DNA of 64,000 nucleotides from assembly GCF_003288815.1 (NCBI RefSeq), contig NZ_NHYM01000004.1, forward strand, positions 62,001 to 126,000, given 5' to 3'. The stretch is from Helicobacter sp. 16-1353 (GTDB lineage: Bacteria; Campylobacterota; Campylobacteria; Campylobacterales; Helicobacteraceae). The notes under the pieces are model-generated. The model was not told the origin of the DNA. It was given only the letters and a program-made list of their open reading frames with translations, and did not search any database. The position numbers were made by a program, and so were the translations under genes. Of this stretch, positions 7,476-40,183 are shown one piece after another. Each line of letters begins with the position of its first letter. Positions within the stretch are counted from its first letter, which is position 1.

Positions 7476-7484
7476 CCCCCCCCC
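7476..7484. repeat. C9 homopolymer tract
   Basis: Nine consecutive C residues are followed by ATAGCC. G/C tracts of 8-12 nt are typical slipped-strand contingency sites in Campylobacterota. Here no credible gene or promoter is attached. Two further tracts (27981, 39918) share the context ATA(T)GGGGGGGGG on the opposite strand. Confidence 0.7.
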
Positions 7485-11135: not shown

Positions 11136-11519
11136 TTAATCATTTTTAATCATATTCATTACTCTATTATGCGACCCATGATAGCTAGTTTTATAATTTA
11201 GTATATTTCCATCGCTTACTTCCACGCTTACTAGATTTATTATTTTGCCATTTTCATTTGTAAAAGGCTTATAGAAAAATAGCGTCCTCTCTGCGTTTTT
11301 AGTAACAAATAGCGGATTTAATAATGTTGGCAAGATTCCGCCATTTAGGAATTTCCTATTTTCTAGCTTACCATTTTTAACACGCCTAAGATGACTAAAC
11401 GCATACTGCGGATTTATTTTTAGCTCACCCACCGGCGTTTTTATAATGTTATCGCCTTTTGGATTTTTAAACTGATTTACAAATTGCTCTTTATTTAGCC
11501 TTTTTGGAATCATCGCCAT
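11136..11519 (-). CDS. Small PBECR-like (nuclease-fold) protein
   Basis: A 127-residue product whose start overlaps the end of the giant gene by 29 nt in another frame, suggesting translational coupling. It reads TPVGELKINPQYAFSHLRRV, then NPLFVTKNAERTLFFYKPF, then LVSVEVSDGNILNYKTSYHG. This resembles the compact strand-rich BECR/PBECR nuclease-like domains found in phage and conjugative-element polyvalent proteins. It may be a detached terminal domain of the giant protein, an autonomous effector or its partner. The family assignment is by resemblance only. Confidence 0.55.
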   Translation of the reverse strand: MAMIPKRLNKEQFVNQFKNPKGDNIIKTPVGELKINPQYAFSHLRRVKNGKLENRKFLNGGILPTLLNPLFVTKNAERTLFFYKPFTNENGKIINLVSVEVSDGNILNYKTSYHGSHNRVMNMIKND

Positions 11520-20500: not shown

Positions 20501-23500
20501 TATGTTTTTCGTATATAATCATAGGTGTGTGGAAACTCCCTTTTAAAATAGTCTTTGCTAAATCTTGCCATTTGTGCTTTTTGGTAGCGATATTTTTCTA
20601 TGTCTTGGTTTCTATAGAGTTCGTTTAGTGCGTGATTCGTCTCTGCACTCTCTAGCATATTTTTATATTTTCTGTAAAGCCCACTCGCACCTTCGTCGAT
20701 ATATACATTCCATAAATCAGTTAAAAATTTTAGATTTATTATCTCTTTGTTTGTGCTATTTTTAAATTCATTTTCTAGCTTTATAGCTTCTTTGAAAACA
20801 TCTTTATTATCAAAATTCTTTTTTACTAGCTCATCATAAGCGGATTTTTCCGCCATATATTCACTACTCCATTCATCTAGTCCCTTTGTTCTTTCTAAAA
20901 ATTTTTGATATTCTGTTAGCTTTTGCGTGTATAAATCTACCACTTCCTCCCACTTAGATTCCCCTAGTTGTGTTCTAACCCAATTATATTTTGGGGAGCT
21001 TAGATGTCCTATATAAGATGATTTCTCTCCATACACTTCGCTAACTTTTTCATTTACCTTTTTTATCTTTGCTTCGATTCTAGGGTCGCCTACTTTTGGG
21101 CGGTATGATGATAAAGGCGGATGTTCCGCTTTAAATTTGGCATAATCAAATGGACGCTTCTCCGGGCGTGGCGTTTTAAGATTTTGTGTGGATTTTGTTT
21201 TTGGCTTTGGCTTTGCTGGGCTAGATTCTGCTTTTGGTGCTGGTGGAATCTCGGCTTTTGGTGTTGGGGAATCTATAGAATCTAAAGGGGAATCTTTTGG
21301 ATTCTGTGGTATAATATTGTCTGTGGCGTCATTGGGCGTTTTAGGTTTGCTAGTCCCTAACTCTGTTTGACTTTGATTCCCATTGGCTAGGTGGTCTTTA
21401 CTAGCGGGATTATATCTAGCCTGACTTATTTCATCTTGGGTTGAAATGCCACGAGAATTGGTAAAGTGGGACAAGGATTCTTGTCGTATCGCAGGTTCGA
21501 TTCCTGCTTCGACCCTCTGTAAATTTGGATTATTTAATTCACTTCTTAAAACTTTTTTAGCCGTTACTACATAATTCCCCTCTTTGTCTGCGTTAAAATG
21601 TAAAAAATTTACTTTGTCGGCATTTTCCATATCCTCAAAATCAATAATAAAATTCCTTTTTTCTGTATCAATTAGGGCAGATTTGGCACTAGCGATTATG
21701 TTTGGGATTTCTTTTATTTCATTTGGGCTAAGTGCTTTATCGCCCTTTCTTTCGGCTCGTATGTGGCTAAGGTGCTTTTTGGTTAAAAATACGCTAGATT
21801 GCGGTAAAGCTAAGGCGTCTTGTAAGTCTTTATTAATATCATTTAGGCGGACGACATTAGGAGCGGACGCATAATCCTTGCCTAATACATCATCAACAAA
21901 ATTATTAAATCCCTCTTGGCTTATCTTTTCTTTTGGTAAATCATATCGCTTTAGCGTTTCAAATTCCTTTATTATGCTTTGAGTGGAATCTATTGTATTC
22001 CCACCGCTTGAATCTATAGGACTACCACCGCCACCGCCATTATTCGACGGATTGCCATTTGGATTTATCGGCGGAGTTGGATTCTGTGGGTCATATGTTA
22101 GTAGCTCTTTTTTATCATAGCCGATTAGATTCTTTGAGTTTTTTTCTGCATTTTCTAGCATTAAGTTCGCTAGATTTTGGGCGTTATCTTGGACTTCTTG
22201 CATAGCCATATTTGATTTTAAGTGTTCGTAGTCTAGGTGCTTTAGCCACTCTTTTATTAATGGTTTTAGCTCGTGGAGTAAGTCAGGTGGAGTATGGGGG
22301 CTTGATACTAGATTAAAGATAAATTCCTTTGGCGTCCTTGAATACTTGGTCGATTGCCTTAAGTGGTATAAAAAGGCTGCATTTCGTCCGCCTTGTGTTG
22401 GGAGATACTTCATAGATTTTTTGAAAGTTTCACTTGCGATTTGCATTGCGATTTTGCCCTCGACGCTAACTGCAATATTATTTTTTATTAGCTTTGGGTG
22501 GGATTGGGATATTTTCGAAGCGAAATATAAATCGTTTTGGAATATGGTCGAAATCTCTTTGATTAAGTCTATATGCTCTTTCACGCTTGGATTTACGATG
22601 TTTCGCACTTCACTCAATGCCCTATTTAGCCCTTTATAGTCTGGGACAAATTTATTAGGCTCTAGCTCAATTAGATTTTTCTTTATAGTGGCATTTACTA
22701 TCCCTATTTGCAAGGAATCTCTAGTATCTGCCTTTAGCTTACCAAATAGCGTATTATCAAAGTTTTTTATAGATTTGCCAAACTGCAATAAGACTTTATC
22801 AAGGCTTTCATTATTTACCTTATAGCTTTCGCTCATTAGGTCATTATAAAGCTTACTCTTGCCATTATTGCCGTGCTTAAACTCGCTCCATAGCTTGTAT
22901 TCATCATTGATTAAATCCCATTGCTTTTTAAAGCGAGAATCTAGCCCTTTTATTTTAAGTGCATTTTCCATGAGAGTATCTATGTGGCTTGTTATATCCA
23001 TTAGGATTCCTTTATCGCTATAGTTGCCACGAGTAAAGATATTTCTAAACTTCTCGTTTATAAATTGCCTTGCTTGGATTAGCTCTTTTAGGCTCAAATC
23101 TTTATCTTTAATCTTATTTCGTATTAAGTCCAAATCGCCGCTTATGTGGTCTTTACTAATATTTGCTTCTATTTCTTGCATTTTAGAATCTAAGAAGTCG
23201 GTAATATTAAATCGCTCATTTGGCATTACACTATCTAGTATATCGATAGTTTCTCCATATCTGCTACTTAAATCTTTGTCATAATCCCTTATTGCTGTCC
23301 TTAGCTCATCTATATCAATAGTAGAATCTTTGATTAGCAAGTTATCTGCCCTATTTGTGATTTGCTCTAGGACATTTTTAGCTACTCTTGGCTCACTCTT
23401 TATAATCTCGCCTAAGAATCCAGCAAATCGTGGCTGCGTATATGCAATATCCCACGCTATCTTTTGGATTTTTTTGGCATTAGCGGAGTTGCTTTGGAAT

Positions 23501-23964
23501 GGAGAGAATGCTTCTTTTAGATTAAAGTTCGTCTGCATATTTGTAGTAACAAATCTATCGATATTATCTTGGACTTCTTGTATAAACTGCTCTCCTAAAG
23601 CCCTATCGCCATTAGCTATCACATCAGCTACCACTTTTGGGACGACTCCTGCGTTCCCGTCTCGTATGTATTGGATTGCTTCGTTTATGCCATTCTTTAC
23701 ACCACGCCCCACTTTAAAGGCAGTAAATACTGCGATATCAGATATCCCACTTAGTGCCATTTCCTCGCCCATAAATGCGAGTAGCTCCTCTGTGTTCCCC
23801 TCTCTATTTAGAATCATATTATTTACATAGTAGTCCCCTACGCTTCCCATACCAGCACCCAAAGCCCCACCGATGACGCTTCCAACTCCAGCTCCTAGCT
23901 TCCCAGCTCTAGCTCCAGCCTTAGCCCCATAATATGCCCCAGCCATACCAGTAAAGATACCCAT
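11491..23964 (-). CDS. Giant polyvalent-type protein (4157 aa) with repeated PBECR-like domains
   Basis: A single open frame of 12.5 kb. Residues 3-45 are Gly/Ala-rich (YYGAKAGARAGKLGAGVGSV), like a glycine-zipper membrane segment. Long helical regions follow. Four closely similar modules, each containing NEKQGQVSGAFYR[QD]ELGDID and a WIVTAY strand, lie near residues 1808-1928, 2408-2531, 3045-3165 and 3998-4108. Two more distant domains of the same style lie near 690-830 and 1240-1400. A zincin motif HELLH sits near 3611, and a further domain (SGWSRSRNSSWAIEHFEM) near 3780. Linkers repeat IIPQNPKDS. Two tandem copies of a roughly 150-residue domain (MREQGWLKKH / QREQGNIVSL) lie near 2580-2890. 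The architecture fits the polyvalent proteins described from phages and conjugative elements, which protect incoming DNA. The 5' end may be truncated. Confidence 0.75.
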   Translation of the reverse strand: MGIFTGMAGAYYGAKAGARAGKLGAGVGSVIGGALGAGMGSVGDYYVNNMILNREGNTEELLAFMGEEMALSGISDIAVFTAFKVGRGVKNGINEAIQYIRDGNAGVVPKVVADVIANGDRALGEQFIQEVQDNIDRFVTTNMQTNFNLKEAFSPFQSNSANAKKIQKIAWDIAYTQPRFAGFLGEIIKSEPRVAKNVLEQITNRADNLLIKDSTIDIDELRTAIRDYDKDLSSRYGETIDILDSVMPNERFNITDFLDSKMQEIEANISKDHISGDLDLIRNKIKDKDLSLKELIQARQFINEKFRNIFTRGNYSDKGILMDITSHIDTLMENALKIKGLDSRFKKQWDLINDEYKLWSEFKHGNNGKSKLYNDLMSESYKVNNESLDKVLLQFGKSIKNFDNTLFGKLKADTRDSLQIGIVNATIKKNLIELEPNKFVPDYKGLNRALSEVRNIVNPSVKEHIDLIKEISTIFQNDLYFASKISQSHPKLIKNNIAVSVEGKIAMQIASETFKKSMKYLPTQGGRNAAFLYHLRQSTKYSRTPKEFIFNLVSSPHTPPDLLHELKPLIKEWLKHLDYEHLKSNMAMQEVQDNAQNLANLMLENAEKNSKNLIGYDKKELLTYDPQNPTPPINPNGNPSNNGGGGGSPIDSSGGNTIDSTQSIIKEFETLKRYDLPKEKISQEGFNNFVDDVLGKDYASAPNVVRLNDINKDLQDALALPQSSVFLTKKHLSHIRAERKGDKALSPNEIKEIPNIIASAKSALIDTEKRNFIIDFEDMENADKVNFLHFNADKEGNYVVTAKKVLRSELNNPNLQRVEAGIEPAIRQESLSHFTNSRGISTQDEISQARYNPASKDHLANGNQSQTELGTSKPKTPNDATDNIIPQNPKDSPLDSIDSPTPKAEIPPAPKAESSPAKPKPKTKSTQNLKTPRPEKRPFDYAKFKAEHPPLSSYRPKVGDPRIEAKIKKVNEKVSEVYGEKSSYIGHLSSPKYNWVRTQLGESKWEEVVDLYTQKLTEYQKFLERTKGLDEWSSEYMAEKSAYDELVKKNFDNKDVFKEAIKLENEFKNSTNKEIINLKFLTDLWNVYIDEGASGLYRKYKNMLESAETNHALNELYRNQDIEKYRYQKAQMARFSKDYFKREFPHTYDYIRKTYDKDKLANIFSAMQDLYGRQTKGELLKFARKRNVYDKAFIKDYDIAKELESKLLAEQEAKTLSTTKPNSDTPNANDNDIIDLIETSPQKGLDLPIIGEERLSGEVVDYLAKNNKKVAIESINGESLGMKYPNDTKRTLQGSEIKHTLKAHGDSAIEESRGQIAITLEDIANYPNIVKNADEAITSTTDRGLEAIVSFKQINGYYVVVEEVRPKANELAFKTMRKNRGDYKNDIAYKRELPSDLSVTSTASNNSLDKIIPQNPKDSTQRLQDSIIKSTPNSTTYKYDEWETTITHNGDKVDFEIKDTETGKIVKHTQNKESGERIEARLRGFIIEGNTKHNPSLVPYEKLPKTYTFNGKTYKKASKGEYVNLIKRDIKQLKELIGSIEKEVDLGRQQRQENLKLARKLKVYLQRNKAMDRWHPVDAHKENIFGELPIKNQISRLKEKASKLEINEYKYKLAQNEQLLKEVESGKETRFLIELDKEGSFIPTSQTQQLKFSHFVDLKARDRFELRLAEKANKEGLESVARDYLEESNPAKFKRMESFFIENADKLLPAYSALGRDDAYGYFMLRLANFANISIDEFVLFETKRSVKRGGRKDFDELIKSGKSEEEAYKEIVKRYKENNPDLFNFFDNARKNLESAFNITPIKEFGENYAEFYHDGVNAIKKLLNEKQGQVSGAFYRQELGDIDLVWGDSNFGLKHILDKHGKEFGEFGEGEAGIQNAINEIVKNGNIKIDDNARATLEYTTNQGKVYKVGLKQNWKGEPTANKWIVTAYDDVREADKIINSSGLTKGETLPLNSNESIAKNLNQTQSNIKDKNKELLQRLFKVDSLEQDFFLKTPKATESIFNNGILIKGEKLSANDLQDKIAFLNLSKAIIENADALIKQSEDSYSFVYDAFDNIRYVLSVAKNENGEWLLTSKTPLKTNKTIKEISEGRELIHTKTQEQKTFENFINDYAYVWSDLKNIDGTINPKYKIIWESMGDDKMREYMKLVLKGENLTEPQKLAKEALDKEFAEAKKQAEATLAKLQEEKYKHLKPQQTYEDNELIVRISHGAKKTTIKQTDKATGETKINVLPKDEGLSYHLGAENRFNPPKQDVKVDIKAEIEELLKRGREPISYGEVRADREIIDDIKKDVGREADRIIRRIQGEHNEHIRHRDHPEYIGRTGLGTDQIRRYDEKHALDFEIFMENYGKFLKEENGKSVVTDRIGLLQGEISGRTSFGGYLTELDFFRRSLEGYIWDNTDKKYNVIREFGTNYAEFYHDGANAIKKLLNEKQGQVSGAFYRQELGDIDLVWGDSSKGIQHILERRKSDYVKQGFSESEAISKANEFIESLPQIVESGVLKMGESRAFIRNSDNSVVIALDYKGEGDRKWVITAYENTTAPNPPHSQQTRHNTDTSSDVRASGDSGDIIPQNLKDSPVDKIDSTQPLELQEPSKKELVDFLNGYSMREQGWLKKHIADVFDVLKERINRERPIGARGELKSFSNDEMNALMLEKYPTNELLFQGIAKAMKLNDIENDGVDKILPYVKRKLKNKDEIRAWEIILDNNIDINLKRAIANYNPLGAFGAENITNSLKTIKTLKDEVSLLDETQMINKQSIDKDSDLVNKELEPLEPVEPLKVQEFLKHYNQREQGNIVSLLNNTAFELKKIIENETNKRFSFTMEANQAVFREFFNSNENLRNGIAKAYKFNSIDEILPHIKKLKNKDEIKAWNIILDSNIDINLKRGIIEHIDSAYSITEAIRDTKNFVFKIEKQKLLDTIGTNGIAKEYLYDVKGRNKTISNIVDNDDESRFFPHLEVANQHSFESHYKKLRLLSLSNITKDEFIKLEAKDIIDSNRYKINEYYNHLKSKGELKNESLESIAKEQAEKVYTQILSFRSNLEKALNINPIKEFGENYAEFYHDGANAIKKLLNEKQGQVSGAFYRDELGDIDLVWGEVGSGKSDGFGLSKIAKYHPEILEKLDSVIKNGEIVKDAQGRTNIVLGNDIVGLRNNWKGENTNEWIITAYSKKEDSPKFIDSRQANATREGFSPSNPQGDSTTKEIENANDSAVDLQNPPQVQSTEIPPAPAQAIQVPENLKHNKEIIRILSDIEARNRTIDTYKNLAPKANSDKGRIYAENKAKEFQELKNELEAELQAKIKELESKGIATPKAESTKSTEPTEPQTPNTINKIDVDSLDLDNIPSLSKEESDKLYDETINLIRERNAATGEYEKKIDGLIRNGLAKLDGKGGVEYTNAQSYNQIAPLIQKRDELEKLIKSKKTIQELNKLNLPLDLEYWTKRDIYKLALRYKKILDEGEAEGYIITRKGHGLKLKPEFQYRTRAEMQQVANKLFPIARKYHYLKEKLGTTIKELPTDSKPIPTLDLQKEADYKEVIKFFNKHETDQEQKELFEKILPIAKRLGVKVRTAVNTFNDVVMSDEERKKIAGAYFPLMNLSVVKKSTPTERKSKTLLHELLHSVTSRALDKPEILNPIQKRAVNDLNAIYNELKSSTEYAKKQEGLRAFSAGDYGLKNVHEMIAELSNPEFRQKLKAVNLFERVIDAITRLFAFSKDILLNRAAKAGKTGEIVESNAYERIKKAVYDIVDNYDDDFTFKYENSGRIKDETIAAMNANSGYSGWSRSRNSSWAIEHFEMPLSLFNRERMNRLINEIDKYKSDLEDNGVSVEKAKEILKNTSVVDFRESAKKAGRASWHHTGIDFKETDHYSFIDAIAEIAQNGVTKAPKIKAEKLKSEGIGLAVIKEYTGKYPNTRFIGYKTIIGEIKGSWIIEANGTKHNVNANKLIVYTDYKDHTELRKELRENNYSTEHNKKDSSLQRSTEVKRLIGEYLKNKLPKAEPIKKFGVNYSEYYHDGVNAIKKLLNEKQGQVSGAFYRDELGDIDLVWGDSNFGLKHILDKHPQVADEIPNIVKNGELRTENNINTIIFDNGKNTYRIGLSKGWDRKGDNNWIITAYEIDKPVSPRPDVLPSNELTKGDGTNLHPKDTSGEIIAKNGDDSKKAK
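11833..11960 (-). repeat. PBECR-module DNA repeat, copy 4 (C-terminal)
   Basis: About 120 nt encoding the FYHDG...NEKQGQVSGAFYR...DIDLVWG segment, nearly identical to the blocks at 14681, 16597 and 18412. The shared DNA allows recombination between modules. Confidence 0.8.
14681..14802 (-). repeat. PBECR-module DNA repeat, copy 3
   Basis: This copy encodes the same segment but differs just after DIDLVWG, where it reads EVGSGKSDGFGLSKIAKYH instead of DSNFGLKHILDKH. The conserved core is therefore joined to variable downstream halves. Confidence 0.8.
16597..16726 (-). repeat. PBECR-module DNA repeat, copy 2
   Basis: This copy encodes the same core followed by DSSKGIQHILERRKSDYVKQ, again a distinct downstream half joined to a nearly identical core. 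Confidence 0.8.
18412..18540 (-). repeat. PBECR-module DNA repeat, copy 1
   Basis: This copy encodes the core followed by DSNFGLKHILDKHGKEFGEF. It shares DSNFGLKHILDKH with copy 4, so copies 1 and 4 are the closest pair. Confidence 0.8.
21491..21507 (+). other. tRNA T-arm-like sequence inside the giant gene
   Basis: GCAGG-TTCGATT-CCTGC, on the strand opposite to the coding strand, has exactly the form of a tRNA T arm and is followed by TTCGACCC. No other tRNA arms are recognisable upstream. It could be an integration scar carrying a tRNA 3' end, or chance. Confidence 0.3.
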
Positions 23965-24423: not shown

Positions 24424-25551
24424 TTACTGATTTTTATTGAGCAATGAAAACTTTACTAATTTTTCCAACATATGCCTAAAGAAAGTATAGATTGATTTAC
24501 GCGGATTTATATTATTACACATATTGTGTTTATTATTTTGTGTATTCATAATTAAAATAGTGCGATAGCAATTAGAATGTTTTTCGACCAAATTTAGCTT
24601 GCAAAGCCTATCGAGATATTTTTTTACATATTTTTCTTTCAAGTGGATTTCTTGCGAAATTTGGGAAAGCGTGTGTTCGCTCATCAAAAAAACCAAAATA
24701 TCATCATATTTCTTAATCATTTTTTTAGGGGATTTGGTATTAATTTCCAATAATTTGCATTTATCTTCGTTTGATAATTGCAAATATCCTTCAAAAGATT
24801 CATCTCCTTTTACAAGCATAGCAATACTGCAATCATCGCTTGTTGTCTTGATAATTACCTTTTCAAAACTTTCTCTAAGTTGCTCTTGTAGTTTCTCAAT
24901 GGGGATAAATGTCGAAATTTGCATTATCTTTTTTACAATATCTGCTATTTTGTGCTCTTGTTTGTTATATAAACTTGCTTCGCTCCCATCAGACATTAAA
25001 ACAAATCCGCAAATTTCTCCCAAATCGCCATTTATTAGCTTCATTGTCATAATGGCATCTTTTGAGGTGGTAAATACGGTTGTATTCACAAACTCGCCAT
25101 TTTCCGGACAAGAGGCAGTCTTTAGCTCATTATTTTTAAGATAGCCTATTACTCCGTCCCCAATATGTGCCATTATAAACTGCTCGTTCTTAACTGCCAC
25201 TACTAGCAAAGTAGAAGCCAAGTCGTTTATTTCACATTCTAGTTGCTCCGCCCTTTCGCTTAAAACTTCTAATAAGCCATCTAAAAGCTGTTGTTTTATG
25301 ACTACTCCATCATTATTAGCAAAATAAGAATCAAATTTTTCGCTTAACTCCAAGCATATAAATTTAGTAACGCTCTCAGCCCCATAATGGGAGAATCTAG
25401 CAGATCCAGCACCATCTGCCAAAGCAATAATGAATGTGTCATTAGTGTAGAGAGAATCTGTCTTATCTTGGCAAGGCGTATTTGATTTTATATGTCCTCT
25501 GCCTTGCACGGCACATTGCATTATATTCCACATTTTAAGATTCTCAATCAT
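24424..25551 (-). CDS. PP2C-type protein phosphatase with C-terminal helix-turn-helix
   Basis: I place the start at ATG 25551, which overlaps the vWA stop as ATGA, rather than at the upstream TTG. The 375-residue product has PP2C (PPM) metal-binding motifs: CQDKTD (D29), ALADGAGSARFSHYGAESV (D46, G47), AHIGDGVIGYL, FVLMSDGSE and TSDDCSIAMLV. These make it a probable Mn/Mg-dependent Ser/Thr phosphatase. After about residue 250 comes an extra domain with a winged-helix-like stretch (LSQISQEIHLKEKYVKKYL, then LCKLNLVEKH) that may bind DNA or a partner. It is the last gene of a cassette with a vWA protein and a kinase, as in TerY-P systems, where it would reverse the kinase. Confidence 0.85.
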   Translation of the reverse strand: MIENLKMWNIMQCAVQGRGHIKSNTPCQDKTDSLYTNDTFIIALADGAGSARFSHYGAESVTKFICLELSEKFDSYFANNDGVVIKQQLLDGLLEVLSERAEQLECEINDLASTLLVVAVKNEQFIMAHIGDGVIGYLKNNELKTASCPENGEFVNTTVFTTSKDAIMTMKLINGDLGEICGFVLMSDGSEASLYNKQEHKIADIVKKIMQISTFIPIEKLQEQLRESFEKVIIKTTSDDCSIAMLVKGDESFEGYLQLSNEDKCKLLEINTKSPKKMIKKYDDILVFLMSEHTLSQISQEIHLKEKYVKKYLDRLCKLNLVEKHSNCYRTILIMNTQNNKHNMCNNINPRKSIYTFFRHMLEKLVKFSLLNKNQ

Positions 25552-26231
25552 AGCGTTCCCCAACCTTGTATCGCCTCTACATCTAGCGTTATGCTCTCTC
25601 TGGGAGTTGATTGTGAAGTCCTTGATACACTTTGGCTAAGCCACGCGAAAAATTCACGGAATTTTAAGCCTTGCAGTTTTAAAGGCGTCCTTTTGGTGGA
25701 GAATCCTGCAAGTATTTCCATATTTACCTCAGCACCTATGCCAATTGGAAATATGGTGAGCTTGTTTTGATTTTCTAATTCTAGCACTCTATTAACAGCA
25801 CGCCACAATTCCTCTTGACTGCTAGTTGGCACTCCATCTGTCATAAGAACTAGCCAAGGCTGGTAATAATCTACTCCTTTTTCTTTATATTCACTTTTCC
25901 GCCTCTCTAATAAATCTAACCCTAAATTAATAGCCTCTCCCATTGGGGTTGCTCCACTGGCTTGAAGAGTTGGGGCATTGGGCTGTATTTCCAAACCTGC
26001 AAAGTCACAAACACATGTTGCTCCCCCTCCACCAAAAGTTACAATGCTAATTTCTGCTGAATACAATGCCATTTCGTCCTCACGGATAGCCTCGTAAAAC
26101 AAGCGAACACCATCATTTAGCTCATTAATGGGAGCTCCGCTCATAGAGCCACTAGTATCTAAGCAAAGACATACTGGCACTCTTGCTGTTGGATTATCTG
26201 CCAAATCATCTATTTTCACTAATGCATACAT
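25548..26231 (-). CDS. von Willebrand factor A domain protein (TerY-like)
   Basis: The 227-residue product is a stand-alone vWA domain. The MIDAS residues are visible: D25-x-S27-x-S29 in CLDTSGSMSG, the threonine in QASGATPMGEA, and the aspartate in LVLMTDGVPTS. It lacks a signal peptide, so it is cytoplasmic. Its length and sequence fit TerY-like proteins, which couple to a kinase and a PP2C phosphatase in the TerY-P subset of the tellurium-resistance stress networks. It sits between the kinase gene (51 nt upstream) and the phosphatase gene (4-nt overlap). Confidence 0.88.
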   Translation of the reverse strand: MYALVKIDDLADNPTARVPVCLCLDTSGSMSGAPINELNDGVRLFYEAIREDEMALYSAEISIVTFGGGGATCVCDFAGLEIQPNAPTLQASGATPMGEAINLGLDLLERRKSEYKEKGVDYYQPWLVLMTDGVPTSSQEELWRAVNRVLELENQNKLTIFPIGIGAEVNMEILAGFSTKRTPLKLQGLKFREFFAWLSQSVSRTSQSTPRESITLDVEAIQGWGTL

Positions 26232-26281
26232 TTTTATCCTCCTAAAATTAAATATTTAAAAATATTCATTTGTTCCTACTA

Positions 26282-27776
26282 TTACACGAAACGGGTCCTT
26301 TTGTAACGAGTAGGAAACAATTCTAACGACATACTATCTTGTGTGCCAAACTTGCCACTATCTAACAAATCAATATAAAATTTAAAAATTTTAAGCCATT
26401 TTGTTACTGAGAGCCTAGTGTCCTCTGTGGAATAATTACCTCCTTTACTAAAAGTGTGATAAAACGCTTTTTTTACTTTATATGGCAAGTGGCTCCACAT
26501 AAAACGCCACGAACCATCTGGCTCTTTATTATTAGCCTTATCTTCAAAGCGATATGGAAAATTCATTTGAATAATATTTTCAATTTGGTTTTCCCCGCCT
26601 CGATGTGAATATGGCGGTTTCCCCGGAAGCATAATCATAAAAAGCAGTGTAGCTACTGCAAAATTTTCATTGCCTATTGTTCGTAAAAAACTAGCAAAAT
26701 TCTTTCTTTGAATCTCTGGTGCAGTATAGTTGATAGTGCCTACTGGACAAGGGAAATCGCCAATTTGATAGCTATCCGTATCGACAAAATAAACTTTCTT
26801 TGGCGATTCCACTAAAATATTTAGTGGATTTATATCTCCTATTATGATTTTTTTTGTCATGTAGATATTTAATTTTCTTTAAAATAGTTATACATAGTTC
26901 TACAGTATCGCGTTTTTTCCAATCTGGAAAATTTTTCAAAAATAATTTTTTAATGAAAATGCTTTTTTGTATTTCCTTTCCTTTTGCTTTTGGCATTATA
27001 AAGCCGACAAACTCATTCTTAGAGTTCCACAGCTCTGCAACTGGACAGCACACACCCTTACACTTCATTTCTTTGCTAAGCATAAGTTTAATTTTTTCAT
27101 ATTTTTTTTCGTCAATATTTTCTTTTTTGTAGATTTTGGCGACATATGGGGTATCTGTTGAGTATATGATGCCCTCGCCTCCACTTGCAACTTTGGATTC
27201 CAGCTTTATTTGACCTAATTTTGAATACACGATTTCATTTTCTTTTGGGATATGAGTTACATTTATAAATTTACTTAAGAATCCATACTCATTGATTTGC
27301 CTAACATGAATACAATTCGCTTTGACTGATTTATTGTTGTTTAAGGCTAAAATATCTCTAGCCAAATTATTATCTTGTGTGATAAGCAATAATTTATATG
27401 TCATTCTAAATTTGGTGAAAACCACTTGAAAGACATTGTCCGCGAAGCTATCATTTTCCTCGCCCCGAATGTCTATAAAATTATCATCATTAATTCGTTG
27501 CTGTAAGTCTTTTAGGCATCTTTTGGCTCGCTTGGCAAGTTCAGGCTTTGCTTTATTTGCTTCGTGTTTTTGTAGCTCCTCAATGATTTTAAAGGGGATA
27601 ATCAGCTTATTTTGATATTGTTGAAGAAATGGAATAATATTTATCCAGAATCTGTCTGATGCAAAGTGCAATATGCTACAAGTATCTATAAATATTTTCC
27701 AATCTTTAGCATAATATTCAAAAGGAATTAGTGATGTTGAACTTCCAGTGTTGCTATTTATAGCTCCATTAATCAA
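26282..27776 (-). CDS. PIN domain fused to a protein kinase-like domain, split by an A8 frameshift
   Basis: The upstream frame (27776-26772, TTG start overlapping the previous stop as TTGA) encodes a PIN-like domain. It has FIDTCSILH (D31), an IIEELQKHE segment and LLITQDNNLARDIL with its acidic residues. A kinase N-lobe follows: VASGGEGIIYS glycine loop, then YVAKIYKKE with the ATP-binding lysine. The C-lobe is in another frame (from 26860): IIIGDINPLNIL replaces the HxDxxxxN loop, and YFVDTDSYQ stands in for DFG. The frames meet at eight As (26848-26855 on the plus strand as T8). Seven would give one protein of about 498 residues. The PIN-kinase partner is a known theme in TerY-P-type loci. 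As sequenced it is off, or expressed only by slippage. Confidence 0.8.
26848..26855. repeat. A8/T8 tract at the kinase frameshift
   Basis: A run of eight A residues on the coding strand separates the two halves of the PIN-kinase gene. One base fewer restores a continuous frame reading HDKKIIIGDINP. The run is either a phase-variable switch, a fixed mutation or a sequencing error. Confidence 0.75.
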
Positions 27777-28039
27777 GGTGCTACCCTTAAAACTTGATTT
27801 AGATTCTTAGAAGTTATATGAAGCATTTTGTTTGCTAAAAAGAAAATGGGTCGAATCTTGATGTTATTAAAAAGTAAAATGGGAAATGTGGCGGAAAATA
27901 GAATCTTGTTTTGGATAGAGGATTCTGGGTCTAAATGTAATTTAGCTAAATTGGGAATTTGCTCTACGAGATAGCTAAATCCCCCCCCCATATTTTGGGG
28001 CTTTGTAGCGTATAAAAATTGCATTAAGAGAATTAGCAT
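27773..28039 (-). CDS. Small ORF with a G9 tract, upstream of PIN-kinase
   Basis: An 88-codon frame opens with ATG and a strong ribosome-binding site (GGAGGGATT just before it). It contains nine Gs (ATGGGGGGGGGATTT, reading M-G-G-G-F), and its stop overlaps the TTG start of the PIN-kinase gene. I do not recognise the product; the segment after the tract (LVEQIPNLAKLHLDPESS) looks protein-like. The G9 tract would switch the frame by slippage and could change translation of the coupled kinase gene. It may instead be the remnant of a longer gene. Confidence 0.45.
   Translation of the reverse strand: MLILLMQFLYATKPQNMGGGFSYLVEQIPNLAKLHLDPESSIQNKILFSATFPILLFNNIKIRPIFFLANKMLHITSKNLNQVLRVAP
27981..27989. 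repeat. C9/G9 homopolymer tract inside the small ORF
   Basis: Nine consecutive C on the plus strand, read as G9 by the 88-codon ORF. The length and base are typical of contingency tracts in Campylobacterota. Confidence 0.75.
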
Positions 28040-33972: not shown

Positions 33973-34210
33973 GGCTTGGCGGGAAATCCGTGCGGGAATC
34001 TAGATTCGCGGAATCTAGGGTGGAATCCGTGCAGAATCTATGCGGAGATTCTGGCTAGATTCTTAGATTCTCACTTAGATTCTCAGCTAAATCCGCCTAG
34101 TTTTTTGGAATCTTGCTTAGATTCCAGCTAGATTTAACCGGATTCTCACTTATATTTTAGACAGATTCTAGCCCAAAGATCACCTAGATTCCCACTAGAT
34201 TCCAGCCCAA
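33973..34210. repeat. Intergenic array of GATTC/GAATC words
   Basis: By hand count about 15 GATTC or GAATC words fall in 230 nt, many as CTAGATTC or TTAGATTC. The spacer separates the convergent HgdB-like gene and the GTPase operon and holds no gene. Confidence 0.8.
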
Positions 34211-34214
34211 ATCG

Positions 34215-34397
34215 CTACTTAAATAATTCCTTTATAATGCCAAATATGTCGCTTAGGCTTGACATATCTAGCTTTTGGAGTTTTATTCCACATTTAGGAC
34301 AGAATGATGATAGTGGCGATTTATAGTCTGGCACGATTTTCTTTGTATAGCCACATTTGGGGCAAGTGTAGAATGCCTTTATTGGTTTTTGTATCAT
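34215..34397 (-). CDS. Zinc-ribbon protein (60 aa)
   Basis: This small protein has two CxxC knuckles, YTCPKCGYT (residues 10-18) and FCPKCGIK (residues 32-39), forming a classical zinc ribbon. A helical tail follows (SSLSDIFGIIKELFK). The ATG follows the end of the GTPase gene by 30 nt, so it is the last gene of the dynamin-like operon. A ribosome-binding site (AAAGGAAAACAA) precedes it. It could bind RNA, DNA or a protein partner; no enzyme function is implied. Confidence 0.75.
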   Translation of the reverse strand: MIQKPIKAFYTCPKCGYTKKIVPDYKSPLSSFCPKCGIKLQKLDMSSLSDIFGIIKELFK

Positions 34398-34427
34398 TTG
34401 TTTTCCTTTAAAATAGAATCTCTGTTT

Positions 34428-35915
34428 TTAAGAAAGCCTATCAATGATAGCAAATAGTTTATTCTTCATTTCTAGCAATTCGCTATTATCGCTTTTAAGT
34501 TGCTTGGCTTTGTTGTCGATTTTGTCAATCGTGCCATCAAATGTGATTTTAATGCAGTTTTTATAGCCATTTATTAGTTGCTCTTTTAGCTTATTAATCT
34601 CGCTTTGGGATTTGCTTCTAGCCTCTAGTTGCATTGTCTTTTGTCGCTCCTCTTTTTGATAGCTATTAAACATATCTAATATTGCACTTACTATAAGGAT
34701 TAATGTTTGAGTCCACCCAGCTTTTCCACCTATTTCGTTTATAATCGTTGGTATAAAAGCCTTTACTTGCTCTATTATCTTAGGCAATATTTCGTCGAAT
34801 ATATCACTACTTGGGGCTTCGATATTTGCGAGATTTGTAGTCGCATTTGGGGTGCTAAACTCTAAAAACTCATCAGTTTTTGTCCTTAGCTCTCTCTCTG
34901 CTATTTTCATAATGTTTATTGCTTTTTCATTGATATTTGAGACTTTGGCATTTAGATATTTTTCAATATCACTTTTCTTGCTCTCAATACTGCTTTGTTG
35001 GCTTAGTAGTATCTCTAGGATTCTGCTATCTGCCCCTACTAGTTCATTATTAACCATTTTTTCTAGCTCAATGTTTAGGGATTCTTGCTGCTTTTTTAGA
35101 AGCGTGATTAGCGTTTCGATTTGATTGGATTCCTTATTGTCGATTTTGTTGTCGAGCGTTTCAAGCATATTGTTTATAAAGTTTCTAATGTATTGATTTA
35201 GTGCATTTACGACTTCCTTATGCCCGGATTTTGTTAGGCAGTCATCTATGGCACTTTCAAGCCCTAGAATTTGGCTATCGCTTAATAGTCTATGCTTATT
35301 TTCAATCTTTGCCTTTAGGGCTTCTTTGGCATTCACTATATAAACGCTTATTTTATTCTCAATCTCCTCTATATCGTTTAGCTTCCCAATTCGCTCTAGA
35401 TTTAAATAGACTTTGTTTATGATTTGACGCTCTTGTAATGAGTTTGGATTAATGCCATTTTTATTATTTAAGACCAAGATTATTGGCTTTTTTGCCTTTA
35501 CTACTTCGCCTATTTTCTCATAGACAAACTCCACTTCAAGCGACCCATCAGTGCTAATGACAAATAGCACAATCTCGCTTTTTTCTAACTGCTCTTTTGT
35601 TACCAAGTCATCTTTATTGTCCACATTTATGCCCGGCGTATCAAATATCGTGTAGCCATTATATAAATATTCATGCACCTCTTTAGTCTCTGGGGCATCG
35701 CCCATTTTTGCAACTTCCTTGCCAAATAGAGCATTTATTAGAGTGCTTTTTCCAGTATTATATTCGCCATAGATTATCATCGTTTGCCTAAAGTCTCTAA
35801 TCTTAGAATCTATATGCGAGATAAACTTTTCAATCTCACTAGATTCACATACTTTTTGTGCGACCTGCGTAACCTCATCTTTTATTTTTCTGTAATCGTT
35901 TTTGTCGTTTATCAT
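34428..35915 (-). CDS. Dynamin-like GTPase (495 aa)
   Basis: A dynamin-family GTPase with Walker A IIYGEYNTGKSTLINALF (near 43-60), a switch threonine (APETKEV near 75), G3 IFDTPGIN (near 94) and a G4-like LVLNNKNG (near 146). The C-terminal two thirds are long helices typical of the stalk. A hydrophobic patch (TQTLILIVSAILDMF near 405-420) may insert into membrane. Its start overlaps the stop of the larger GTPase by ATGA, so the two are translationally coupled. Paired dynamin-like proteins in Campylobacter jejuni and the Leo proteins of enterotoxigenic E. coli are the closest analogues I can name; a membrane-remodelling role is inferred. Confidence 0.82.
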   Translation of the reverse strand: MINDKNDYRKIKDEVTQVAQKVCESSEIEKFISHIDSKIRDFRQTMIIYGEYNTGKSTLINALFGKEVAKMGDAPETKEVHEYLYNGYTIFDTPGINVDNKDDLVTKEQLEKSEIVLFVISTDGSLEVEFVYEKIGEVVKAKKPIILVLNNKNGINPNSLQERQIINKVYLNLERIGKLNDIEEIENKISVYIVNAKEALKAKIENKHRLLSDSQILGLESAIDDCLTKSGHKEVVNALNQYIRNFINNMLETLDNKIDNKESNQIETLITLLKKQQESLNIELEKMVNNELVGADSRILEILLSQQSSIESKKSDIEKYLNAKVSNINEKAINIMKIAERELRTKTDEFLEFSTPNATTNLANIEAPSSDIFDEILPKIIEQVKAFIPTIINEIGGKAGWTQTLILIVSAILDMFNSYQKEERQKTMQLEARSKSQSEINKLKEQLINGYKNCIKITFDGTIDKIDNKAKQLKSDNSELLEMKNKLFAIIDRLS

Positions 35916-37717
35916 AATGTTCTCCTTACTTTTTCCATATTATTTTTAAACTTTCCTATCTCTGTTTTTATTGCCCCTATTTCCGTTTTAATATCGCTAA
36001 AGCTCTCGCCTAATTGCAAAAAAGTCGCCTCAAATGCTTGGCTATAAAAAGATTCTACTTTGGCTCTAAAGCCCCTTAAAACAACCTCTTTATTATCACC
36101 AATAAGCGTTTTTTTGACTATTTCATCATCATTAATTATATCAGCCACTTTATCGCCGAATGCAGCTAAGCCGCCGCCGATAATTTTGACAAATGGATTA
36201 GGAAGTATCGCCAGAATGCTTCCTGCAACTTTTGCTCCACCCTTAAAAGCTTTTTTATACCATGGCTCCTCTTTGTGTTTAGTTTCGATAAATATATCTT
36301 CTATCTCAATATCTCCAACCTCAAGACCCTCAAATAGCACACCAAAATCATTGCTGATATTTTGCAGAATCTCGTTTGTGTTATTGGTGATAATCTCACT
36401 TGTCTTAGAGTTTATTTCATTGGTGATTATTTTGCATTTTTCTTTGACATTTTCCTTAGTTGTGCTATCTATGTGCCTATTAAATGCCTTATCTATCGCC
36501 ACTTGCAAATCTACTTGAGATATTTTTTGTGCGTCTTTAAGTTGCCTTAATCCCTCATTAAGCGAATTTTCTAGCTTTTCAATCTTGTTGTATATATCTT
36601 TGATAGACCCCTTAGAATCTGTGGAATCGCTCAAAATTAGGCTTATAAACGCATTCAATCCATCATAAGGCACTTGACTTTTTAAGCTTTTGGCTTTTTT
36701 GATTGCATGGTCTTTCATTAGCTCATAAAATTTTGGGATATTGCTATTTTCAAACATCTCCAAATCGTTATTTTTTATTGCTTCTTTTGCAGTCGCCACA
36801 GAAATAGAGAATATGTCCCCTAGCTTATTTTTTATTTTTTCTTTTGGGATAATTTCATTTATGGTGTTTTTTACATACTCTTCTTGGTTTTTTCTATCTT
36901 TATCATTTTTATTTACTAGCTTTTTAATAATGCTTTCTTCGCATTTATCGCAAGCAGTTTTGCTATCACACTCGCACTCATCGCTTTCGATTATGTCGGA
37001 TTTTGTGATACATATGGTTACCTTTTTATTTTGGTCAAAAAGCTCTTTTATGTTGTCCTGCTCATCTTTTTGTAATGGACTAGTTGATGAAGTGGGGTAG
37101 ATTATATAATCTGCATTTTCTATATATTCCCTTGCTAATGCTCCATTTTCCTTTGTAAGAGAACCAAGCCCCGGCGTGTCAATCCACGCCATTCCACCGA
37201 GATTAAATCGTTGGATTCTATCAGTGCACTCCACCACATCGGTGGCAAATCCGCTTTCTTCAGATTCCCCATTCTCTTTCGTATCTGGCAGCTCTTCTAA
37301 TCGCTCGATTTTATGCCATTTTTTATGTCTGTATTCTAAAAACTCCACTTTTTGTTGTTCTAATTTATTATTTGCGATAAAGTTCCCAAAAGTGCTTTTC
37401 CCAGCCTTAACCTTGCCAAAAATAATAACAATAAACTTATTCTTTAGCTCCGTTCGAAACTTCTCTCTCTCAAGCATTTTGCTAAAGTTATGATTCCACA
37501 TTAAAAACACTTCTTTTAAAGAATTCATAAGTTCCTTAAAAGATTCCTCAATGTCCGGATTTTTAATATTAATATTAATGCCCTCTATGGCATTTTTAAA
37601 GCTATCAATGTGGCTTCTAATCTCACTTCTTGTGTTATCTAGCTTGTTGTTTACATCTGCTATATCTTTTAGCGATTCATATAAAGACACATAAAAGCTA
37701 TTTAGCTGTTCTTTCAT
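35912..37717 (-). CDS. Dynamin-like GTPase (601 aa), LeoA-like
   Basis: This is the largest GTPase of the operon. An N-terminal helical region of about 95 residues precedes Walker A FGKVKAGKSTFGNFIANN (near 100). Then come G3 AWIDTPGLGSL (near 175) and G4 CITKSDII (near 230). Directly after G4 is a cysteine-rich insertion (DECECDSKTACDKCEE) that could bind metal. Helical stalk sequence follows. A Gly/Ala/hydrophobic segment (KKAFKGGAKVAGSILAILPN, then IIGGGLAAFG) near 500-530 is a good candidate membrane paddle. The overall layout resembles LeoA-type bacterial dynamins. The gene shares its stop/start junctions with neighbours on both sides, indicating one mRNA. Confidence 0.82.
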   Translation of the reverse strand: MKEQLNSFYVSLYESLKDIADVNNKLDNTRSEIRSHIDSFKNAIEGININIKNPDIEESFKELMNSLKEVFLMWNHNFSKMLEREKFRTELKNKFIVIIFGKVKAGKSTFGNFIANNKLEQQKVEFLEYRHKKWHKIERLEELPDTKENGESEESGFATDVVECTDRIQRFNLGGMAWIDTPGLGSLTKENGALAREYIENADYIIYPTSSTSPLQKDEQDNIKELFDQNKKVTICITKSDIIESDECECDSKTACDKCEESIIKKLVNKNDKDRKNQEEYVKNTINEIIPKEKIKNKLGDIFSISVATAKEAIKNNDLEMFENSNIPKFYELMKDHAIKKAKSLKSQVPYDGLNAFISLILSDSTDSKGSIKDIYNKIEKLENSLNEGLRQLKDAQKISQVDLQVAIDKAFNRHIDSTTKENVKEKCKIITNEINSKTSEIITNNTNEILQNISNDFGVLFEGLEVGDIEIEDIFIETKHKEEPWYKKAFKGGAKVAGSILAILPNPFVKIIGGGLAAFGDKVADIINDDEIVKKTLIGDNKEVVLRGFRAKVESFYSQAFEATFLQLGESFSDIKTEIGAIKTEIGKFKNNMEKVRRTL

Positions 37718-38148
37718 TATAATCTCCTTATTAATTCACTTAAAGTAGCAAGCCTTTCATTAAGGCTTCTTTGCCCTACTTCATTCATAATTACATTGTC
37801 AACACCTCTAATCTCTCCGCCCCTTATATTTTCTAGCTCTTTAATTGTCGCCTCAATTCCCTCTATATCATCATTAAGATAGTCAATATTTTCGTCTAAA
37901 GTGGCAATTTGATGTTCTAGCCTCCTAAGTTCTACTTTTATGGGTTCTTTTATTGAGAATTCTGTCTCTATAGGCATTATTTTTACAGGTTCTTTTCTTT
38001 GGACTTGCTCATGTTGTTCTTTTGCAAGTTTTTCAGAATCCTCTTGTGGAGCTTTGTCATTTTCGTTGTCGGCAAACAAATCGTAAGCAAGTTTTCCAAT
38101 AGTTGCTACTGCGACCACTCCGCCGATTACGGGTAAAAACGGTATCAT
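37717..38148 (-). CDS. Membrane-anchored coiled-coil protein
   Basis: I place the start at ATG 38148 because AAAGGAGAGG lies just before it; an upstream ATG at 38184 lies inside the previous gene. The 143-residue product begins with one transmembrane helix (IPFLPVIGGVVAVATIGKLA), then a charged linker and a coiled coil of about 60 residues (LRRLEHQIATLDENIDYLND and beyond). It lies between two GTPase genes and could be a membrane receptor or adaptor for them. No family is recognised. Its stop and the start of the 601-residue GTPase share a base. Confidence 0.65.
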   Translation of the reverse strand: MIPFLPVIGGVVAVATIGKLAYDLFADNENDKAPQEDSEKLAKEQHEQVQRKEPVKIMPIETEFSIKEPIKVELRRLEHQIATLDENIDYLNDDIEGIEATIKELENIRGGEIRGVDNVIMNEVGQRSLNERLATLSELIRRL

Positions 38149-38159
38149 ATCCTCTCCTT

Positions 38160-38990
38160 TTATTGATTTAAGTGTGCATTCCATTCACTAACTTTTCTAG
38201 CTAGTTTGGCTCTTTGATTTTCTAGTTTGTCCTTTTCTAGTTGGATTCTCTCTCTTTGTGTTTTAAGTTTTTGTATGTATTCGTCGCATTTTAGAGCTAG
38301 GCGATTTTTCTTTGCTTGCATAATTGTATTTCCATATTTTTCAATTAAGGTATTTATCTCTACTCTAATCTTGTCAATATTGCTATTTTCAACTAGCCTG
38401 TTTTTGTTCTCCTTTTTGCCTTTTATATAGTTTTTAGACGATGTGGCGATAACCTTATTGTTAATTGCTTGATTTGGAGTGCCAAAAATATCTATTATCT
38501 GCCGTTTCATTTTATTACTAATCTTATCTATGTCGCTTTGTTGCAAACTATCAGCTCTAGATAACACAAAGATATTTTTGTTTATGAAATCATTAGGATT
38601 ATCCCAATTGCTTTTTATGTGGTGCAAAAAATTCATTTCCGGCTGGTTAAATTCGCCCTCTGCACCATTATGAACGAATATATTAAAATCAGCTTCCCTT
38701 ATGGCATCAATTGCCCTTTTGTCGTCATTTTCCCTTGCATTTAAGCCCGGCGTATCGATATACTCAATATTTTCGTAAACAAAAGATTTGTTTTTAGCAG
38801 TCGTTCGCACATCGCCGATTTTAAAAGTTTTTTCTTCAAAATCATCAATTAAGGCGTTCATAAGAGAGCTTTTTCCGTGGTTATAAAGCCCCGTGCAAGT
38901 GATTTTTACGACATTATTTTGGATATTCTTTCGCAATATTTCTAGGATTTTTATATCCTCTCTAGATAGGTATTTGTCCATTTTGCTCAT
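38160..38990 (-). CDS. Small dynamin-like / Era-like GTPase (276 aa)
   Basis: A GTPase with Walker A TGLYNHGKSSLMNALI (near 32-47), switch threonines in DVRTTAKN, G3 EYIDTPGLNA (near 75-84), and a G4 site in FVLSRADSL (near 143-151). The C-terminal ~60 residues form a basic coiled coil (AKKNRLALKCDEYIQKLKTQ and onward). It is much shorter than the two other GTPases and lacks a long stalk. It may act as a regulator or hetero-oligomer partner, as in LeoBC or the C. jejuni dynamin-like pair (analogy). It starts 10 nt after the TerB-like gene. Confidence 0.8.
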   Translation of the reverse strand: MSKMDKYLSREDIKILEILRKNIQNNVVKITCTGLYNHGKSSLMNALIDDFEEKTFKIGDVRTTAKNKSFVYENIEYIDTPGLNARENDDKRAIDAIREADFNIFVHNGAEGEFNQPEMNFLHHIKSNWDNPNDFINKNIFVLSRADSLQQSDIDKISNKMKRQIIDIFGTPNQAINNKVIATSSKNYIKGKKENKNRLVENSNIDKIRVEINTLIEKYGNTIMQAKKNRLALKCDEYIQKLKTQRERIQLEKDKLENQRAKLARKVSEWNAHLNQ

Positions 38991-39000
38991 TTATTCCCCT

Positions 39001-39399
39001 TTAAATCTCAATAAGGGCATAGCCTTGCACATACGCAGATAGCACCGTTTTCGCCCACTCTACATAGATGGTTTCTAGGTAGTAGCTAAGACCAAATTCC
39101 TCGCGAACTTTCTCCAAAACTTTCCTTTCCTCCTCGTGCAAAAAATGGTCGGAATAGATAAGTAGGAGAATCTCCATTAATACTATTTTTTGGCTTTTCT
39201 TGTTTTTGATTTTCCCAAGTGTGTCGTAAATATCAAAGTTTTCTTTATCAAATTCAATATCCCCAATCTGCATTTCAAGCAAATATTTTTCTATGATGTC
39301 ATTTTGCGTCTGACTGAAGTTGTTGCAACTCTCAGCGATATAATGTGCTAGCTCCAAAAATCCTATTTTTTCCTCATTCGTTAGGCGGTTTAAAAACAT
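39001..39399 (-). CDS. TerB-like helical protein
   Basis: A 132-residue all-helical acidic protein. The pattern NRLTNEEKIGFLELAHYIAE, then KIVLMEILLLIYSDHFLHEEE and RKVLEKVREEFGLS, fits the TerB/DUF533-like fold. In that fold paired acidic helices (ADG.....EE) bind metal or sit beside membrane. The match is weak and by eye. It has its own ribosome-binding site (AAGGAGAAAA) and stands second in the operon. TerB domains often accompany stress and membrane-associated systems, so it may link GTPase activity to a signal. Confidence 0.5.
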   Translation of the reverse strand: MFLNRLTNEEKIGFLELAHYIAESCNNFSQTQNDIIEKYLLEMQIGDIEFDKENFDIYDTLGKIKNKKSQKIVLMEILLLIYSDHFLHEEERKVLEKVREEFGLSYYLETIYVEWAKTVLSAYVQGYALIEI

Positions 39400-39410
39400 A
39401 TTTTCTCCTT

Positions 39411-39698
39411 TTAATTTTTATTTACACTTTTTAGGGTTTCTAAAATCGCATTAAATTTCTTTTTGCCCTCTATTTCGCCATATTCGCTAATTAGCGTATT
39501 TTCAATATTTGCGATGAAGTCTTGCAAGGCTTGGGATTCTATAGATTCTGTGGAATCTTTCGATTGGCTGGATTTATCAGATTCTCCAAAGTCATCAAAA
39601 TCACTAGAAAAGTCCCAATCTTTTATAAACTCATCATATATCTTTTTCCCCGCTATCCCTACAATTATCCCAGCTAGTAAATGAAATGGAAATCCCAT
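39411..39698 (-). CDS. Small membrane-anchored protein heading the GTPase operon
   Basis: A 95-residue protein with one N-terminal hydrophobic helix (FHLLAGIIVGIAGKKIY). A low-complexity Asp/Ser linker follows (residues 35-52, with SKDSTESIESQ encoded by GATTC/GAATC words), then a short helical domain (FIANIENTLISEYG, KKKFNAILETLKS). It is the first gene of the operon. The single helix near the N-terminus suggests a membrane tether facing the cytoplasm. No family is recognised. Confidence 0.6.
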   Translation of the reverse strand: MGFPFHLLAGIIVGIAGKKIYDEFIKDWDFSSDFDDFGESDKSSQSKDSTESIESQALQDFIANIENTLISEYGEIEGKKKFNAILETLKSVNKN

Positions 39699-39917
39699 TT
39701 TGTCTCCCTTGTTTAATATTTAATATTTTTAAAGTCATTTGCCATTATTGTTGAATTGATTTCACAGCAAGTATTGACCTAGAACAGAAAATAATTTTGG
39801 CTGATTTGTAAGATTTGTAATTGGATTTATAGGACACTTTAAAAGATATTTAAGGGAAATGGAAATAATTTGAAGTAGTTTAAAAAGGCTTTTTAGAATG
39901 GGATTATATTGATTGCT

Positions 39918-39927
39918 CCCCCCCCCC
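39918..39927. repeat. C10 homopolymer tract
   Basis: Ten consecutive C residues stand in the divergent spacer, about 220 nt before the GTPase operon start and 256 nt before moaA. It may affect promoter spacing if a promoter lies there. Confidence 0.75.
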
Positions 39928-40109
39928 TATTTGCATATTTTTCGCTTTGGATTCTATGGATTCTATAAGATTTTGGGGGTTTCGCATTGTAAATTTGCTA
40001 ATTATAAAATCATTCATCGCCATTCCATTTTAAAATATGCAAAATTATAACCAAAAATCACTAGCGATTTTTTAAATTATTTTGAATGTATATTGAGAAT
40101 TCACATAAA

Positions 40110-40115
40110 TATAAT
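40110..40115 (+). promoter_or_regulatory. Probable -10 box for moaA
   Basis: TATAAT followed by ACAATAC lies 69 nt upstream of the moaA ATG in AT-rich sequence, consistent with a Campylobacterota sigma70 promoter. The assignment is by motif only. Confidence 0.45.
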
Positions 40116-40183
40116 ACAATACGGGATTTAGAAAATGTGGAAGTGCGAAATTTTGGTTAAATTTAGCGAGATAAAGGAGTCAT

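Follow-up and report, generated by a model that had tools for sequence, protein, structure and literature searches.

A mobile, probably phase-variable operon of three dynamin-like GTPases, found from Helicobacter to a woesearchaeon and probably anti-phage

Bacterial dynamins are usually described in pairs, and membrane repair has been proposed for one of them, B. subtilis DynA. Cj-DLP1 and Cj-DLP2, the heterotypic dynamins of Campylobacter jejuni, are encoded in one operon as a pair beside a beta-lactamase-like gene (PMC6104087), and Eleos, made up of LeoA and LeoBC, has been presented as a defence system of dynamin-like proteins (PMC11811056); dynamins are also treated as defence proteins in a review (PMC12926258). 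That review reports Dionysus, an anti-phage system with a TerB homologue, in a passage that mentions no dynamin component. LeoABC, which a sequence-only reading of the DNA studied here had listed among dynamins that come singly or in pairs, is indeed a pair, but one with a split member, the cut between LeoC and LeoB falling inside the GTPase domain (PMC4159319). The operon described here resembles Eleos and LeoABC in combining dynamin-like GTPases in one operon with one member probably split, and differs from them in encoding three GTPases.

The operon lies in the window, the whole stretch of 64,000 nucleotides that was analysed, from Helicobacter sp. 16-1353. Seven minus-strand open reading frames at positions 34215–39698 were verified where the sequence-only reading had placed them, transcribed in the order m95, TerB132, A276, M, B601, C495 and Z60 (hereafter m, TerB, A, M, B, C and Z). 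A layout of three GTPases with a membrane adaptor between their genes and a zinc ribbon had been unfamiliar to that reading, and no description of the gene set was found in the literature that we searched, which consisted mostly of papers outside subscription.

Profile searches for dynamin N and TerB domains bore out the proposed composition, with A, B, C and TerB all passing their Pfam cut-offs. Against Dynamin_N (cut-off 27 bits), the three distinct GTPases of 276, 601 and 495 residues scored as follows: A (38160–38990, minus strand; G1 motif GLYNHGKS and G3 motif DTPG), 29.8 bits, with 45.1 bits against MMR_HSR1; B (35912–37717, minus strand; GKVKAGKS, DTPG and TKSD, and a glycine-rich hydrophobic segment at about residues 486–531), 42.8 bits; and C (34428–35915, minus strand; GEYNTGKS and DTPG), a full-length dynamin-like GTPase of the LeoA type, 43.7 bits. 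The G1 and DTPG/DxPG motifs are invariant in the A, B and C alignments. All three GTPases belong to the dynamin family and would be predicted to hydrolyse GTP and to oligomerise at the membrane.

By fold, models of B (pLDDT 79; Foldseek matches to IniA, Cj-DLP1 and mitofusin) and of A matched the Cj-DLP1/Cj-DLP2 entries 5owv/5oxf, at 10–16% sequence identity in the structural alignments; the C. jejuni pair differs in coming without TerB, M and Z. A GTPase with a helical stalk and a hydrophobic membrane tip, the arrangement known from IniA, BDLP1 and the mitofusins, was seen in the models of B and of an unsplit, 405-residue A, and the C profile aligned with LeoA (4AUR) along its whole length. 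Whole-chain TM-scores to IniA, BDLP1 and the mitofusins were low (about 0.2–0.4), and the gene context of those proteins is different.

Spacing within the operon is tight: 11 bp separate m from TerB, 10 bp TerB from A and 30 bp C from Z, and the M–B and B–C junctions read TAATG and ATGA. The B–C overlap stands as it had been reported, but the apparent overlap of A and M arose because the first ATG of M (38184) was taken as its start; this codon lies inside A and would give a product of 155 aa. M (37717–38148, minus strand; 143 aa, with an N-terminal membrane segment and then a helical region) more likely begins translation at its second ATG (38148), which follows a good ribosome-binding site, AAAGGAGAGG, and leaves an 11-bp gap past A. 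Relatives of M also start at the hydrophobic segment.

Rather than a membrane adaptor set between GTPase genes, as had been suggested, M is probably the membrane-binding part of A made as a separate protein, since M is present where A is short and absent where A is long. A is 247–326 aa in 31 loci with M and 386–451 aa in 8 loci without it; this comparison left out two loci with M (L100 and L112) in which the start of A is uncertain, and even their values (361 and 379 aa) do not overlap those of the group without M (at least 386 aa). We rest nothing on a p-value for this difference, in which related loci count as independent. M follows A even where the gene order is B–C–A–M (G325). The model of the unsplit 405-residue A (pLDDT 83) runs from an N-terminal helix through the GTPase domain into a long helix, a hydrophobic tip and a return helix, so that cutting the chain at the tip would yield a protein like A276 together with an M whose N-terminus is the hydrophobic segment. 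Because HHalign, set to compare the profile of M with that of the C-terminal part of A, did not show homology (probability 4%), we infer the relationship from length complementarity and modelled topology, and regard M as probably the missing half of A. The split would then fall past the GTPase domain, in contrast to LeoC/LeoB, where it falls inside (PMC4159319).

We surveyed loci with an alignment of B, using one genome per species (a single B sequence as query gave no loci) and covering the host's family with 121 genomes. The scan gave 58 loci, 50 of them (L080–L129) with a clear B homologue, spread over Campylobacterota, Gamma-, Beta- and Alphaproteobacteria, Mariprofundaceae, Firmicutes, Synergistota, Riflebacteria, Kiritimatiellae and one woesearchaeon. 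A homologues were present in about 40 loci, and about as many hold the A–M–B–C core, in Campylobacterota, Proteobacteria, Firmicutes, Synergistota, Kiritimatiellae and the woesearchaeon. Where the contig has room the three GTPase genes generally occur together, the consistent exception being acetic acid bacteria, which have B and C only. Order is A–M–B–C in most lineages, C–A–M–B in Firmicutes and Synergistota and B–C–A–M in G325. Identity matrices of A, B and C were correlated across 34 loci (Spearman 0.65–0.75; none of 999 permutations as high), as expected for co-inheritance, with shared species history contributing. The arrangement is not chance, because it is conserved across phyla.

Several further genes were noted around these loci. 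A 405-aa GTPase matching the C profile flanks the B–C pair in Gluconobacter (L122:13518-14735), and in Helicobacter didelphidarum (L023:4922-6052) a DUF697-type GTPase of 376 aa sits just upstream of the cassette. A protein of about 360 aa that starts NLLILYNPYYQ and has no Pfam match recurs beside Campylobacterota cassettes (L173:11630-12721, L174:11233-12129, L088:7479-8579 and L080:13567-14115) and is a possible further partner. In Firmicutes, Synergistota and Riflebacteria (L094–L112), C–A–M–B is followed by two genes of conserved size, with products of about 375 and 566 aa. The L100 pair encodes radical SAM proteins, of which the second also has a B12-binding domain, and open reading frames of similar size follow in other loci.

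The complete block m–TerB–A–M–B–C–Z was found in two other Campylobacterota, Sulfurospirillum (L080) and another Campylobacterales genome (L083), where one opposite-strand open reading frame separates m and TerB. Of the seven genes taken earlier as one unit, A, M, B and C hold together as a core, but TerB, m and Z are variable lineage accessories. TerB (39001–39399, minus strand; 132 aa, helical) scored 25.4 bits against PF05099, marginal at one bit over the cut-off of 24.4, and five of six aligned members matched this family (best E 3.5e-9). It is 61–69% identical to the TerB preceding A in L080, L081 (Arcobacteraceae) and L083, and a TerB also directly precedes A in the woesearchaeon and in the Kiritimatiellae locus. 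The small protein m (39411–39698, minus strand) has an N-terminal glycine-rich hydrophobic segment, a probable membrane anchor, and no Pfam match; anchors of similar appearance precede TerB in the same three Campylobacterota loci. Z (34215–34397, minus strand), the zinc-ribbon protein, carries two CxxC pairs, and its homologues adjoin the cassette in L080–L083, L088, L109 and L127, lying between m and TerB in L081.

Cassette TerBs of Campylobacterota scored 207–214 bits against their own profile, and other copies in the phylum at most 147. TerB is nevertheless no exclusive marker of the cassette: 79 of 397 Campylobacterota genomes have a match, and many of these, mostly cassette-free, hold lower-scoring paralogues. 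Both of the two non-cassette copies inspected came with a CxxCxxCC protein and a similar glycine-rich membrane protein. One such group, L169:4036-7968, also has a 555-aa protein with no Pfam match; it adjoins cas2 and a repeat region, and has no dynamin gene. In L084, L126 and L127, moreover, A and M have a CxxCxxCC-like protein between them. TerB, anchor and metal-binding protein thus resemble a reusable accessory module.

The cassette is patchily distributed (10 of 397 Campylobacterota genomes), with a relic carrying a B/C fusion in G063. The 462-aa gene and moaA that bound it in the window are separated by about 6.2 kb (33973–40183), and by 193 bp at the empty site of a sister species (G001). 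Klebsiella plasmids carry the same four-gene A–M–B–C set, and a Photobacterium plasmid has it between type III CRISPR genes. Patchiness, an empty site and plasmid carriage together mark the cassette as mobile. A phage-borne origin was considered and rejected: at the sensitivity of our searches, neither IMG/VR contigs nor a set of 50,697 phage records yielded a B homologue.

In the window the cassette stands alone between housekeeping-type genes, but many of the roughly 40 core loci adjoin defence genes, and the check proposed with the first reading, on gene order and defence islands, comes out positive. Type III CRISPR or CARF genes lie at L079, L085, L103 and L105; type I restriction genes at L122 and a type II methyltransferase at L086; Schlafen AlbA_2 at L087, AbiEii at L083, and TrlF with an S-4TM effector at L074; and WYL regulators at L080, L083, L114, L173 and L176. 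In C. volucris an island beside infC and rpmI-rplT holds the cassette, a genuine Eleos pair, a WYL gene and a D12 methyltransferase. PADLOC profiles at E 1e-15 detected 157 families from 96 flanking proteins compared with 5 from 56 control proteins, a contrast that supports a recurrent siting beside known defence genes and does not measure it, because the controls (from the window and other Campylobacterota loci) were few and taxon-unmatched and the family counts are redundant.

Two-gene A–B relatives, with an unsplit A of about 420–440 aa, were observed inside catechol/benzoate degradation operons (L075–L078) of Acinetobacter, Caballeronia and Diaphorobacter.

Upstream of the operon lies a G10 tract (39918–39927, minus strand), a probable phase-variable element, and 9 bp downstream of it a TATAAT hexamer (39903–39908, minus strand), a candidate −10 element for which no matching −35 was called upstream; the pair stands about 220 bp before m. 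Two Campylobacter genomes have, just upstream of A, a promoter that matches the consensus at 12 of 12 positions and whose spacer is occupied by a G10 tract; the promoters of L088 and L174 read TTGACA-17-TATAAT and TTGACA-16-TATAAT, respectively. At L086 a C11 tract lies inside a short upstream open reading frame. Slipped-strand phase variation of cassette expression would be the natural reading of these tracts.

G/C homopolymer tracts of 9–10 bases occur at three places in the window (7476–7484, 27981–27989 and 39918–39927) and are likely contingency loci; they outnumber the runs of 8 in every one of 100 shuffles. The second, a G9 tract, precedes by about 205 bp a group resembling a TerY-P type triad (24424–27776, minus strand), comprising a PP2C phosphatase, a vWA protein and a PIN/protein-kinase gene whose coding sequence appears to shift frame part-way. 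An open reading frame of 4,157 aa with a glycine-rich N-terminus (11491–23964, minus strand) runs in the same direction as the triad.

We consider the cassette to be a mobile, probably phase-variable, heterotypic dynamin machine of the inner membrane, probably anti-phage, with a probability of roughly 0.55. Observed are the genes, their motifs and folds, the conservation of the unit, its patchiness and empty site, its defence neighbours and the homopolymer tracts at its promoters; from these we infer the function. Because the gene set recurs in distant taxa, often beside anti-virus systems, it is probably an undescribed membrane-based phage defence, and the role in membrane remodelling and defence that the earlier reading had conjectured seems plausible. 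A and M would together make one dynamin-like protein, from a GTPase half and a membrane half, with B and C as two more. The products may form a hetero-oligomer at the cytoplasmic membrane, to which M, B, C and m would anchor it by their hydrophobic segments, with TerB, together with m and perhaps Z, sensing or licensing. Perturbation of the envelope by a phage would lead the GTPases to assemble and hydrolyse GTP, and the membrane would be tethered and resealed, or deliberately broken, with the result that the infection does not succeed or lysis comes later.

A more ambitious form of the defence reading, that this is a cross-domain family whose three dynamin-like GTPases, one of them split at its membrane tip, act only as an obligate complex, with a promoter phase switch in Campylobacterota and a role as a type III CRISPR-coupled membrane effector in some bacteria, is held only tentatively. 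About equally tentative is general repair of membrane stress, in which chemical or antibiotic damage to the inner membrane would be resealed by the GTPases, and the cassette would lie near defence genes through sharing mobile islands with them. Such a role has been speculated for Cj-DLP1/2 (PMC6104087), and the A–B relatives sit in aromatic-compound operons, where membrane-active substrates are handled; these relatives, like the radical SAM genes that follow the Firmicutes version, are not obviously defensive and count against the defence reading. The three-GTPase form, however, is patchy, occurs on plasmids and lies repeatedly beside CRISPR, Eleos, restriction–modification and WYL genes, whereas one would expect genera to retain a housekeeping system for repair more steadily.

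That the cassette is a diverged Eleos (LeoA with LeoBC) with extra genes is improbable. A, B and C are indeed hit by the PADLOC LeoA and LeoBC profiles (E 1e-15 to 1e-34), and C aligns with LeoA throughout, but C reached 111 bits with LeoBC, where intact LeoBC proteins of genuine systems from that family score 290–445 bits. Against the NCBIfam LeoA/HP0731 model (NF041922, cut-off 325 bits) A scored 27.5 and B and C had no match at E 1, and the helical domain PF18709, at 371 bits in the genuine LeoA of C. volucris, is absent from A, B and C. The two systems also coexist in G011, G066 and C. volucris. We rejected membership of Eleos/LeoABC on these profile scores, the missing domain, the architecture and the coexistence. 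Vesicle release aiding protein export, as proposed for LeoABC in ETEC, where leo deletions halve a vesicle-associated marker protein (PMC4159319), is very unlikely for the cassette, which shares with that system a LeoA-like C but has no secretion genes and is present too in Firmicutes and a woesearchaeon, neither of which has an outer membrane.

Defence-finding profiles would probably mislabel the cassette as Eleos. As we read it, it is instead a new form of dynamin-based membrane system; the G10 tract inside a perfect promoter in two Campylobacter genomes predicts ON and OFF subpopulations. A conserved triplet of dynamin-like proteins with a probably severed membrane half, found from Helicobacter relatives to a woesearchaeon, would offer a tractable case of heterotypic dynamins under phage attack.
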